Part shown: positions 28,841-32,603 of the stretch, in pieces
Numbering within the stretch: position 1 is the first letter of the stretch
How the letters are laid out: the number at the start of each line of letters is the position of its first letter
Assembly (NCBI RefSeq): GCF_001049495.1
Contig: NZ_CDWI01000014.1
Coordinates: 124,001 to 188,000, forward strand
Origin: Microbacterium sp. 3J1
GTDB lineage: Bacteria > Actinomycetota > Actinomycetes > Actinomycetales > Microbacteriaceae
Length of the DNA stretch: 64,000 nt
Direction of reading: 5' to 3'
The notes under the pieces: generated by a model
Seen by the model: only the letters and a program-made list of their open reading frames with translations
What the model was told of the DNA's origin: nothing
Databases searched by the model: none
Made by a program: the position numbers and the translations under genes

Positions 28841-30157
28841 ATGGCCATCGTGGACGCACCCCCCAGCATCGCTCCCGGAGCACCGATGCCCGCCGGTCGC
28901 GACGCCGGGATCGACCTGCTGCGCGCACTCTGCGTGGTCGGCGTCGTCCTGCTGCACGCGATCATGGTGGGCGTCACGGTCGCCGACGGTGCTCCGGTGT
29001 TCGCGAACGCGAGTGACGGCGCCTGGTGGATCGTCCCCGTCAGCTGGGCCCTGCAGGTGATGCCGCTCTTCTTCATCATCGGCGGCTTCTCCGGTTTCCT
29101 CGCCCACCGTCGGCTGCGAGAGCGCGGGGCGTCCGCCGTCGACTTCGTCGCCGGGCGCGTGCACCGCCTGTTGCGCCCGGCGGTCGTCGTGATCGGGGTC
29201 GTCGGAGTCCTGCTCGCGGCTCTCGGCATGAGCGGCGTCCCCGCGGACATCGTGGCGACCGCCGGCTACCGGTACGGGCAGCCGCTGTGGTTCCTGGCCG
29301 TCTTCCTGCTATGCCAGTCGCTTCTGCCGGCGCTCGCGGCGGCTCATGCGCGTCGGCCGGTCGTGACCGTCCTGCTGCTCGCCTCGGGCGCCGCGGCGGT
29401 GGATCTCCTCCGCGCCGGCACGGGGATGGAGGCGCTGGGCTTCCTCAATCTCGCCTTCGTGTGGCTGACGCTGCAGCAGTTCGGGTTCTTCCTCGCCGAC
29501 GGCACGGTGGAGCGGCTGACACGACGGACCAGGGCGATCGGCGGAAGCGCCGCTCTCGTCCTGCTCGTCGCCGCCTTCACCGGAGGCGTGTACTCCCCCG
29601 ACCTCATCGCGAACATCAATCCTCCGACCGGCGCGCTCATCCTCGTGGGCCTGGTGCAGCTGAGTGCCGTGTCGCTCCTCCGGGATCGCATCGCGGCGTT
29701 CAGCCGACGTCCGCGCGCAGCGGCTCTCGCAGCCTTCATCAACGCGCGCACGATGACGATCTACCTGTGGCACATGCCGGTGCTCCTCGGCATGGCGGGT
29801 GTCTCCGCGGTCGTCGCCCTCTCGACGGGGATCGCCCTGCCCGAGCCGAGCAGTGCGCTGTGGTGGCTGGGTCGCCCCGTCTGGCTCGTCGCGGCCCTGG
29901 CGCTGACCGCTGCTCTCGCCGTGCCCCTCACCCGGTTCGAGACGACTCGGACGCCGCGTGCCACGCGCTCGGCACGTCGACTCGCCTGCTCCGTGCTGAT
30001 CGGACTCAGTGCTGTCGTGCTCCTGCTCGCCGCAGGAACCACCGTGTGGACTGCGGCGGCGGCGGCGGTCGGTGTGCTCGTCGCTCTCCGGCTCGCCCGC
30101 CGGTCAGACGAGGCCGCGCGCCACGAGGGCATCCCCGACGTCGTCCGCGTGGCGTAG
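28841..30157 (+). CDS. Membrane acyltransferase (acyltransferase 3 family)
   Basis: The 438 residues form about ten membrane helices. The N-terminal GIDLLRALCVVGVVLLHA, with Arg and His in the first helix, is the acyltransferase-3 signature, and the family's IYLWHMP motif lies near residue 306. These enzymes acetylate or acylate sugars, peptidoglycan or lipids at the membrane. GAGGAGG before the ATG is a strong ribosome site. It may belong to the regulon of the adjacent two-component system. Its 3' end overlaps the convergent transporter gene by 54 bp. Confidence 0.88.
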   Translation: MAIVDAPPSIAPGAPMPAGRDAGIDLLRALCVVGVVLLHAIMVGVTVADGAPVFANASDGAWWIVPVSWALQVMPLFFIIGGFSGFLAHRRLRERGASAVDFVAGRVHRLLRPAVVVIGVVGVLLAALGMSGVPADIVATAGYRYGQPLWFLAVFLLCQSLLPALAAAHARRPVVTVLLLASGAAAVDLLRAGTGMEALGFLNLAFVWLTLQQFGFFLADGTVERLTRRTRAIGGSAALVLLVAAFTGGVYSPDLIANINPPTGALILVGLVQLSAVSLLRDRIAAFSRRPRAAALAAFINARTMTIYLWHMPVLLGMAGVSAVVALSTGIALPEPSSALWWLGRPVWLVAALALTAALAVPLTRFETTRTPRATRSARRLACSVLIGLSAVVLLLAAGTTVWTAAAAAVGVLVALRLARRSDEAARHEGIPDVVRVA

Positions 30158-30697
30158 CGTGCGCACGAGCAGCGGCACGATCGCCCGTGCCCCGATGCGG
30201 ACGCCCCGCGCGCGATGCGCGTCGGCGATCTCTGCCGCGAAGCCGGAGAACACGGGGATCAGCGTCAGTGCGAGCGAGAGCGTCATCGCGACGGCATCGG
30301 CGTCCACACCCCAGCGTCGCAGTGGTGCGAGGAGGCGATGCAGCACGGCGAGCAGCTCCCCCATCGGGGTGGTCATGGTGAGGAGCGTGGCGAGCAGCAC
30401 GAGGGAGACCACCCTGGCGGTGCTGACCCAGGCCGTGAGCGGTGACACGAAGATCCACAGGGCGCCGCCGAGCACCAGCACGAGCCACCGGAGGCGCCAC
30501 AGCTCGGTGCCGAGCACCCGGAGCGGCACACGCGCGACGATGAACAGCAGGCCCACACCCAGAGCGACGGCGCCGATGCTGACCGCGTCGTGGGGATACA
30601 GAGACACCGCGAACGCGACGACCGCGAGCAGCAGCAGCTTGGAGCCGGCAGACAACCGGTGCATCGGGCTCGCGCCGGGCCGATACAGCTGGATCAC
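30104..30697 (-). CDS. bioN: ECF transporter T component, biotin
   Basis: EcfT links the ATPase to the substrate-binding S component. The 197 residues contain about five helices and the two Ala-Arg-Gly coupling motifs (AHRARG near 165 and VARGLV at the end). Order bioY-bioM-bioN identifies it as the biotin unit. It overlaps bioM as GTGA. Confidence 0.9.
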   Translation of the reverse strand: MIQLYRPGASPMHRLSAGSKLLLLAVVAFAVSLYPHDAVSIGAVALGVGLLFIVARVPLRVLGTELWRLRWLVLVLGGALWIFVSPLTAWVSTARVVSLVLLATLLTMTTPMGELLAVLHRLLAPLRRWGVDADAVAMTLSLALTLIPVFSGFAAEIADAHRARGVRIGARAIVPLLVRTLRHADDVGDALVARGLV

Positions 30698-31404
30698 GCG
30701 CAGCTCCGTCGGTATGCCTCGATCACGGCCGCCGGCTCACCGGACGCGGTGAGCACGCCGTCGTCGAACAGCAGCGCATGATCGCATCGGGCTGCGAGGT
30801 CGAGGTCGTGGGTCGCCACCACCAGCTGCGCCGGATCCGACAGCAGCAGGTCGCCGATACGGCGGGCGTTCCGCAGATCGAGGAGAGTCGTCGGCTCGTC
30901 GGCGACCAGCAGTGCAGGGTCGGTGATGAGGACCGAAGCGAGGGCGAGCAGCTGCTTCTGCCCGCCCGACAGCGCCGAAGCCGGCACGTCGGCACGATCG
31001 CTCAGGCCGTGCTCGCCGAGCGTCGCCCAGACGCGACGCTCGGTCTCGGCCCTCGACGTTCCTCGCAGCGAGAGACGGAGGTCCTCGATCGGCGTCGGCA
31101 TCAGGATCTGCGCCTGCGGGTCGGTGAACACGAAGCCGACGCGGCGACGAACGGCCGCCGCATCCCGCTGCGTGTCGAGCCCCTGGACCGTGACCCTGCC
31201 CGCAGCGGGCAGGACGAGTCCGTTGAGGAGACGCACGAACGTGGACTTCCCAGATCCGTTCGCTCCGATGACCGCGGTGCGCCGAGCGTCGAGCTCTACG
31301 GAGACGTCGCGGAGGATCGGTCGGCCCTCGCGCTCGACCGTCACGGCTTCGACGGCGATCCCGGCGACCCGCGTCTCAGGCGGCACGGGCGGACGCGGGA
31401 GCAT
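30694..31404 (-). CDS. bioM: ECF transporter ATPase, biotin
   Basis: This 236-residue ATPase has Walker A GANGSGKST (47-55), Q-loop DPQAQIL, signature LSGGQKQ, Walker B LLVADEPTTLLD and H-loop ATHDLDL. It powers biotin uptake with BioN and BioY. The start is uncertain: ATG 31404 overlaps bioY by 29 bp; ATG 31416 and GTG 31386 are alternatives. Confidence 0.92.
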   Translation of the reverse strand: MLPRPPVPPETRVAGIAVEAVTVEREGRPILRDVSVELDARRTAVIGANGSGKSTFVRLLNGLVLPAAGRVTVQGLDTQRDAAAVRRRVGFVFTDPQAQILMPTPIEDLRLSLRGTSRAETERRVWATLGEHGLSDRADVPASALSGGQKQLLALASVLITDPALLVADEPTTLLDLRNARRIGDLLLSDPAQLVVATHDLDLAARCDHALLFDDGVLTASGEPAAVIEAYRRSCA

Positions 31405-31960
31405 CGATTCCGGCACGCCCGAACGCCGGCGGATATGCGCGGCGCAGCGCGAGCACCAGGGCCGTCGCGGCGGCTGCCTTGAGGAGATCGCCCGGCAGGA
31501 AGACGAGGCTGGAGGCGGCCGCGGTCTGAAGGTCCAGGCCCAGCACCAGTGCCTGGACCGGGATGCCGAACAGGTAGACGACGAGGATGCCGCCGACGAC
31601 CGTGGCGAGGGCGGTGCGCCACCACGAGATGCGGTGCCCGCGGACGAGCAGGCCGATCAGGACCGCGCCGATCACCCAGCCCAGCAGGTACCCGGCGGTC
31701 GGTCCCACGAACACGCCGAGGCCTCCCCTCCCTCCGGCGAGCACGGGGAGGCCCAGCGCCGCGAGCACCAGCACCAGGAGCACCGCGAGAGGTGCTCTGC
31801 GGGGATCGAGCACCGCGCCCGCCAGCATGACCCCGAGTGTCTGCGCCGTGATCGGCACGCCGCCGGGGAGGGGGAGGGTGACCATGCCGAGCACGACGAT
31901 GAGCGCCGCGAAGACCGCGATTCGAGCCAGATCGCGACCGAGGTCGTTCTGTCGAGCCAT
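31376..31960 (-). CDS. bioY: Biotin transporter substrate-specific component
   Basis: BioY is the membrane S component that binds biotin. The 194 residues have six helices and the family motif GGVPITAQTLGVMLAGAVLD near residue 37, plus GPTAGYLLGWV. AAGGA upstream of ATG 31960 fixes the start. Two BioQ-type palindromes lie just upstream, and no biotin synthesis genes are in the window, so uptake is likely repressed when biotin is sufficient. Confidence 0.94.
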   Translation of the reverse strand: MARQNDLGRDLARIAVFAALIVVLGMVTLPLPGGVPITAQTLGVMLAGAVLDPRRAPLAVLLVLVLAALGLPVLAGGRGGLGVFVGPTAGYLLGWVIGAVLIGLLVRGHRISWWRTALATVVGGILVVYLFGIPVQALVLGLDLQTAAASSLVFLPGDLLKAAAATALVLALRRAYPPAFGRAGIDAPASARAA

Positions 31961-31974
31961 GAGAGATTCCTTCC

Positions 31975-32002
31975 TGAACACCGTTCACCTGAACGGTGTT
32001 CA
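31975..32002. promoter_or_regulatory. Tandem BioQ operators between bioY and bioQ
   Basis: TGAACACCGTTCA (31975-31987) and TGAACGGTGTTCA (31990-32002) are two palindromes of the form TGAAC-N3-GTTCA separated by CC; together they form one longer near-palindrome. The Corynebacterium glutamicum BioQ motif is TGAAC-N3-GTTAC. The second site abuts the bioQ -10. Confidence 0.85.
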
Positions 32003-32003
32003 C

Positions 32004-32009
32004 TATAGT
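32004..32009 (+). promoter_or_regulatory. Leaderless bioQ promoter -10
   Basis: TATAGT lies 6 nt before ATG 32016 and directly follows the second operator, so BioQ should repress its own gene. Confidence 0.65.
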
Positions 32010-32015
32010 GAGATC

Positions 32016-32603
32016 ATGACCCCGGACCACAACTCGACCCGCCACGACCGTGACGGAGTAGCGAGTGCCGCGCTCGCGCTGCTCGACGAGGTGGGGCTCG
32101 CCGACCTCTCGATGCGCCGCATCGCCGGGACCCTCGGCGTCCAGCCGAGCGCGCTCTACTGGCACTTCTCCAGCAAGCAGCAGCTTCTCGCCGAGCTGGC
32201 GGACCGGATCACCGCGCCCATCCCGTCCGGCGTCACCGACGTGCTCCCCCTCGCGCGCAGCATCCGCGATGCCCTCTTCACGTATCGGGATGGAGCCGAG
32301 CTCGTCCTGAGCACGTACGCGCTCGGCCTCGGATCCGCGCATGCGCAGACCGCGCTGGAGTCGGCCTTGCGTCGCAGCGGCGCAACGGACGCGACGGAGC
32401 GCGCCGCCGCCCTCCTCCACTTCGTGCTCGGCCACGCGACCCTCGTCCAGCAGCGCATGCACGCCGACAGCCACGGCGTGGTCGAGATCGATGGTGCCGA
32501 CGATGTGACGGCCGGTCTCGACCGGATCTTCGATGTCGGCGTCTCCGCGTTGGCCGGACCGGCCGTCAGAGGCGTGTCGACTCCGCCGCGTGGCCGAGCC
32601 TGA
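32016..32603 (+). CDS. bioQ: TetR-family regulator of biotin genes
   Basis: This 195-residue TetR protein has an N-terminal HTH (LSMRRIAGTLGVQPSALYWH at about 29-48) and a helical ligand domain. Position divergent from bioYMN and the BioQ-type operators identify it as BioQ, known as a biotin-pathway repressor in Corynebacterium and Mycobacterium. BioQ itself does not bind biotin in those species, so the signal is unclear. Its 3' end overlaps the convergent MFS gene by 38 bp. Confidence 0.85.
   Translation: MTPDHNSTRHDRDGVASAALALLDEVGLADLSMRRIAGTLGVQPSALYWHFSSKQQLLAELADRITAPIPSGVTDVLPLARSIRDALFTYRDGAELVLSTYALGLGSAHAQTALESALRRSGATDATERAAALLHFVLGHATLVQQRMHADSHGVVEIDGADDVTAGLDRIFDVGVSALAGPAVRGVSTPPRGRA

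Follow-up and report, generated by a model that had tools for sequence, protein, structure and literature searches.

BioQ control of biotin genes has been predicted widely in actinobacteria. PMC3398298, quoting Rodionov 2007, predicts BioQ and its site, TGAAC-N3-GTTCA, in 11 of 27 actinobacterial genomes, and reports that in Corynebacterium glutamicum biotin limitation raises maximal biotin uptake at least 10-fold, with BioQ as the predicted regulator. According to PMC4554459, there is no direct evidence tying DNA binding by BioQ to biotin metabolites, and BioR, of the GntR family of alphaproteobacteria, exemplifies a two-protein paradigm in which a separate repressor is encoded beside the ligase. 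Here we describe a 64,000-nt stretch of Microbacterium sp. 3J1 (contig NZ_CDWI01000014.1, positions 124,001 to 188,000; hereafter the window, numbered from its first nucleotide), in which two tandem BioQ sites separate the biotin uptake operon bioYMN from a divergent tetR gene of the BioQ type. The system is a well-conserved variant of known BioQ vitamin control and not a new kind of switch. For actinobacteria, both BioQ with its site and a connection of BioQ to biotin transport were already known or predicted; the new part is the fixed tandem operator. An earlier reading of the window, made from the sequence only, had presented the locus as extending BioQ control to Microbacteriaceae, a step that is modest because BioQ was already predicted in so many actinobacterial genomes.

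The closest solved relative of the window TetR, by sequence and by fold, is BioQ of Mycolicibacterium smegmatis (PDB 5xs9, 5yej, and 5yek). Like mycobacterial BioQ loci, the locus has the same 13-bp site, with TGAACACCGTTCA, for example, found beside bioQ in relatives, and a divergent layout. In mycobacterial-type loci, however, bioQ faces bioB and a second site lies near bioA/bioF (among the 20 loci listed), whereas in the window a 15-bp tandem faces the uptake operon. As in C. glutamicum, where PMC3398298 describes a BioYMN uptake operon that responds to biotin supply, BioQ is the candidate regulator and TGAAC-N3-GTTCA the site. Unlike in C. glutamicum, bioQ and bioYMN point away from each other, and none of bioB, bioA, and bioD reaches threshold. 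BioR shares the two-protein arrangement and belongs to a different protein family.

Two perfect TGAAC-N3-GTTCA palindromes, TGAACACCGTTCA (box 1, 31975..31987) and TGAACGGTGTTCA (box 2, 31990..32002), both annotated without strand, lie between bioYMN and tetR. They are separated by 2 bp, with 15 bp from centre to centre, and the 28-bp operator is its own reverse complement save for the central two bases. Each box is preceded by CC (31973-31974 and 31988-31989), the first of these forming the end of a GGAAGGA before bioY (31968-31974, minus strand). In the whole genome (3,400,308 bases), TGAACNNNGTTCA has two perfect sites, both in the bioY/tetR gap. The reversed pattern has none and, with one mismatch allowed, yields 5 matches versus 24 for the true motif. 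At the base composition of the window, about 0.7 single perfect sites and about 1.5e-7 tandem pairs are expected by chance in 3.4 Mb. The count within the window is weak by itself, as 14 of 100 shuffles of the 64 kb had at least two matches with one mismatch allowed; what gives the signal its strength is therefore that the match is exact, paired, and conserved. These sites confirm the sequence-only reading, which had described two such palindromes with this gap and spacing. The corynebacterial motif to which it compared them, ending in GTTAC, has to be corrected: the prediction quoted in PMC3398298 is TGAAC-N3-GTTCA, and the window matches it exactly.

The tandem pair is conserved in the genus. 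An orthologue of the TetR protein occurs in 23 of 35 same-genus genomes, source genome included, and the same 23 genomes have a close BioY. Two perfect sites exactly 15 bp apart are beside tetR in 22 of the 23; the exception (L036, in genome G026) has one. The gene opposite tetR is a divergent bioY at 18 of the 23 loci, bioMN instead at four, and neither at one. All 18 loci with divergent bioY retain the 15-bp pair; loss of the motif in relatives that keep the gene order, set earlier as a refuting test, was not seen. Of 30 distinct same-genus pairs, 29 are spaced by 15 bp and one by 14 bp; in genome G102, which comes from another sample and is outside this count, the pair that separates bioY from tetR is also a 14-bp one. 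The two boxes carry different triplets in 21 of 22 same-genus tetR operators, with arms and spacing constant. The remaining 12 genomes lack the orthologue, a close BioY (best match 1.9e-15, or none), and the pair, and have 0, 1, or 3 scattered sites each. Among these cassette-less genomes (G003, G008, G010-G013, G017, G018, G022, G025, G028, and G031), eight have only a distant BioY and in four no BioY was found.

Sites are also present where bioY is no longer beside tetR. In genomes G002, G005, G023, and G029, bioY is separated from the tetR-bioMN locus and carries its own 15-bp pair, which in G002 is identical to the 28 bp of the window. Genome G130 likewise has bioY apart from tetR with its own 15-bp pair. 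In G026, bioYMN is 6.5 kb from tetR and has a 14-bp pair, and tetR has its single site. Thus, of the six split-locus genomes examined, five have a 15-bp pair beside bioY and another beside tetR, and the sixth has sites at both genes.

Comparison of boxes refines the consensus. Among 40 different sequence contexts in which both boxes are perfect, the central triplet is R-N-Y (purine, any base, pyrimidine) in 80 of 80 boxes, and CC (or GG on backward reading) separates the boxes in 36 of the 40; CC is also ahead of box 1 in all 24 tetR-adjacent 15-bp operators. The refined consensus is TGAAC-RNY-GTTCA and, because CC is found both between the boxes and before box 1, the repeat unit is CCTGAACRNYGTTCA with a 15-bp period. 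At loci found with M. smegmatis BioQ as query, 151 of 151 perfect sites fit RNY, versus 5 of 17 unpaired same-genus sites among the matches listed.

Beyond the genus, the tandem pattern (up to two mismatches) matched 21 of 396 genomes of the order, versus 2 for a backward control, and the tandem pattern with RNY triplets matched 32 of 394 genomes of the class, versus 0 for the control. Outside the genus, bioY adjoins the sites in 11 of 15 matching order genomes; the other four (L066, L067, L075, and L076) adjoin neither bioY nor bioB and are kept in the counts. At the 26 class loci, bioY is a neighbor in 21, bioB in three (L245, L248, and L255), and neither in two (L244 and L269), which are also kept; class genomes G509 and G725 yielded no locus. 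In L067 and L075, the tandem sites are beside TetR-like genes, with no bioY or bioB found within the 3-kb locus.

At 77 of 80 M. smegmatis-BioQ loci there is no second site within 60 bp, and at the other three the spacings are 17, 17, and 25 bp. Among genomes of the class sample with a TetR match at 1e-12 or better, the 15-bp pair occurs in 23 of 31 from family f45 versus 0 of 28 from family f22, whose rows cluster with named mycobacteria in the tree described below. Two f22 loci have pairs with other spacings, L294 with 16 bp and L273 with 34 bp. In genome G040, a pair spaced by 18 bp fronts a run of bioB, bioA, and bioF (bioB and bioA above cut-offs; bioF the best model but below its own) and a single site precedes bioY. 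In genomes G327 and G337 (loci L069 and L073), the operator that separates bioY from the TetR gene consists of three units with a 15-bp step, the middle unit bearing one mismatch.

The regulator encoded beside box 2 (195 amino acids, 32016..32603, plus strand) has Pfam domains TetR_N and TetR_C_1; an NCBIfam scan of it gave no model above cut-off. Its best three PDB sequence matches are 5xs9, 5yek, and 5yej (E ∼3e-23), and the titles of the matched structures identify them as M. smegmatis BioQ and as BioQ with its natural operator. The predicted structure has a mean predicted local distance difference test score of 89.3, and its top six Foldseek matches are BioQ chains. With the M. smegmatis BioQ fragment as query, the window TetR ranks first in its genome (6.2e-23 versus 1.9e-4 for the next among the matches listed). 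In a tree of 77 rows (L041 dropped for length), the window TetR, same-genus orthologues, families f45 and f58, and mycobacterial BioQ are on one 72-row side (98/90) versus five other TetR proteins, although several long branches are unsure and one more out-group row is inside the 72-row side. The loci found with M. smegmatis BioQ (n = 80, 78 with a mycobacterial title) all have a bioB match and a site with at most one mismatch; upstream of BioQ, 77 of them have a perfect best site and the other three a best site with one mismatch. Sequence and predicted fold support placing the window TetR in the BioQ lineage, and TGAAC-N3-GTTCA is located at biotin genes and at bioQ itself. Orthologues, split loci, tree, and Foldseek matches together lend support to the earlier proposal that BioQ targets bioYMN and its own gene.

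Uptake, and not synthesis, is supported as the local target, as had been proposed. No bioB or bioA was found above cut-off in the 35 same-genus genomes, where their models give below-cut-off matches via related enzymes; three of 58 relatives have each gene, all outside the genus. A search for bioD, confined to the source genome, gave no match, and its control search was positive in 9 of 14 genomes. The lack of bioB and bioA matches above cut-off in the genus is what points to uptake as the local target. The whole-genome motif scan called for earlier, which was to look for bioA, bioB, bioD, or other targets, recovered only the bioYMN/bioQ pair as perfect and none of those three as a target. With one mismatch, the source genome has 22 sites, 10 of them with an RNY triplet. 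Seven of the 10 are within frames with high GC content at third codon positions (L301, L303, L304, L305, L309, L310, and L311). L302, L306, and L308 are outside such frames, and their scanned neighbors are HisG, ribulose-phosphate epimerase, GDSL lipases, and two small frames without Pfam matches. No biotin gene was found at any of the 10. With no third target found among the perfect sites and these 10, the predicted regulon is bioYMN and bioQ (bioF was outside the searches).

Extra single perfect RNY sites in three relatives were also considered and rejected, with no biotin gene nearby. They are in G034 (SpoU methylase/DUF2809), G026 (UvrD helicase), and G014, where the site (L298:2528-2540) is flanked by two divergent genes, one encoding a flavoprotein disulphide reductase and the other an AMP-binding enzyme, and is possibly there by chance. 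Around a further such site, in G033 (L300), no reading frame passed the filter. Because unpaired sites of the genus fit RNY at the rate given above, about 1 in 4, extra single sites were treated as chance.

The sequence beside box 2 has putative promoter elements on both strands. A putative -10 of tetR/bioQ, TATAGT (32004..32009, plus strand), starts 1 bp past box 2, consistent with the earlier remark that the second palindrome abuts this element, and the start codon is 6 bp on. A putative bioYMN -10, also TATAGT (32002..32007, minus strand), overlaps it, with CACTAT two bases further upstream as an alternative. Among the 24 tetR-adjacent operators whose boxes are 15 bp apart (L036 and L272 were left out), a TANNNT hexamer is 1-2 bp past box 2 in all and is TATAAT, TATAGT, or TATACT in 23; all 24 have a start codon 6-7 bp beyond the hexamer, and in 23 the other strand shows TATAGT or TATACT, sharing that TATA. 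A pseudo-symmetric sequence, with putative -10 elements that overlap on the two strands, is present and conserved beside box 2. Five split loci carry bioY without tetR; all five show TANNNT on the bioY strand, 2 bp upstream of the operator, and two show it on the tetR strand, 1 bp past box 2. We infer promoter positions from this conservation alone. With a start codon only 6-7 bp past the putative -10, tetR looks leaderless.

We consider it very likely that the locus encodes a BioQ-type autorepressor that would bind both boxes at high biotin, shutting bioYMN and bioQ, and would leave both to be transcribed at low biotin. When biotin is plentiful, BioQ dimers would occupy both boxes. If the spacer is of ordinary length, box 2 would fill the interval between the putative -10 and -35 of tetR and box 1 would overlap the -35. 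Towards bioY, the two boxes would span from approximately the transcript start to the putative ribosome site GGAAGGA. Both genes would be blocked when both boxes are bound. Upon a drop in biotin, BioQ would come off and bioYMN and bioQ would be transcribed from back-to-back promoters, with -10 elements overlapping in the same TATA. The model is built directly on what the sequences show: conserved sites linked to bioY and tetR, a regulator akin to BioQ, and a biotin ligase with no detected DNA-binding domain. Repression, promoter positions, binding by two dimers, cooperativity, and a low-biotin signal are predictions drawn from these sequences.

Several points weigh against this model. Its support is comparative, and the BioQ cassette is absent from 12 of the 35 same-genus genomes. 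In genome G021, the M. smegmatis BioQ query prefers another TetR over the orthologue (8.8e-24 versus 1.4e-22). The DNA-reading part of the protein also resembles tetracycline repressors. Same-genus orthologues do not form a single clade and are split in the tree (three label changes, at least two forced). Lastly, a scan with the sigma-70 consensus found no promoter at the operator.

The geometry of the operator suggests how two dimers could act together. A 15-bp spacing corresponds to approximately 154 degrees around the helix, which puts dimers on nearly opposite faces so that they need not clash and could bind jointly; cooperative binding at the two boxes, as suggested earlier, is plausible. 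QacR, another member of the TetR family, places two dimers on each operator and is a precedent for two cooperating dimers. Unlike that of QacR, the operator in the window consists of two separate palindromes 15 bp apart. A bolder proposal, which we regard as speculative and rather unlikely in its entirety, is of a widespread BioQ variant in which two or three copies of the 15-bp unit CCTGAACRNYGTTCA keep the dimers on opposite faces and clamp a shared pseudo-symmetric -10 of a leaderless autorepressor gene and an uptake operon. If so, RNA polymerase could fire in only one direction at a time and repressor and transporter would be made as alternatives. In this organism, for which no bioB, bioA, or bioD was detected, the signal of BioQ would then have to be biotin, its adenylate, or a biotinylated protein and not a late synthesis intermediate.

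BioQ control could also be correct without any cooperativity, with the tandem merely a dosage device that arose by 15-bp slippage and in which dimers bind independently or a single box is used. This deserves serious thought even if we lean away from it. The exact repeat of the unit and the three units in G327 and G337 are what slippage would give, single sites prevail at mycobacterial BioQ loci, and 8 of the 31 f45 genomes with a TetR match have no 15-bp pair (the two of these that were inspected, L279 and L286, have one site). Against it, the triplets differ between boxes in nearly all same-genus tetR operators, which indicates that the boxes are no fresh copies and that both have been kept, and pairs are retained at split bioY loci.

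Two other explanations would remove BioQ from biotin control. TetR beside a major facilitator superfamily (MFS) transporter is a classic efflux layout, and the protein could sense a ligand other than biotin, such as the substrate of the convergent MFS transporter, with bioYMN a mere neighbor. The TetR-MFS arrangement, the TetR_C_1 score of the C-terminal domain, and a related MFS gene beside tetR at 10 of 23 same-genus loci, the window included, are in keeping with this. Yet at the other 13 loci no such MFS gene is within the fetched flanks, operator pairs follow moved bioY genes and front bioB in other families, and the source genome has no other perfect site; we judge this explanation very improbable. 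Least credible of all is control by the biotin ligase in the manner of a BirA repressor, with the palindromes incidental. The source genome does encode a biotin protein ligase, but it matches BPL_LplA_LipB and BPL_C, with no DNA-binding or helix-turn-helix domain at E up to 1. The ligase thus shows neither the N-terminal helix-turn-helix of the BirA type nor any other detected repressor domain, as in a two-protein arrangement.

A limited literature search found no description of a fixed tandem array, of RNY triplets in the site, or of a leaderless tetR with a symmetric promoter, nor a paper covering both BioQ and Microbacterium; RegPrecise, which includes a BioQ regulon according to PMC6593275, may list tandem sites. 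The abstract of PMC12825309 states that nothing was known of bidirectional-promoter control before that study, and the symmetric -10 described here is a candidate for a bidirectional promoter controlled by a repressor. The fixed 15-bp tandem, kept in several families, offers a ready test of cooperative binding. A genome with no detected bioB, bioA, or bioD and with its sole perfect BioQ sites at an uptake operon and bioQ is also a clean place to seek the signal of BioQ.

The uptake operon is on the minus strand. Its first gene, bioY, encodes the biotin-specific S component (31376..31960, ATG at 31960; Pfam BioY, 6.1e-37) and is overlapped by bioM, which encodes the ATPase of an energy-coupling factor (ECF) transporter (30694..31416; Pfam ABC_tran). 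TIGR04520 is the best NCBIfam model for BioM, yet the match is below its cut-off. The last gene, bioN, encodes an ECF T component of the CbiQ family (30104..30697; Pfam CbiQ, 8.7e-18) and has a 4-bp overlap with bioM. S component, ATPase, and T component of a BioYMN ECF transporter are thus encoded in one operon of overlapping frames. On the other side of the operator, the 3' ends of tetR and the convergent MFS transporter gene overlap by 38 bp (32566-32603).
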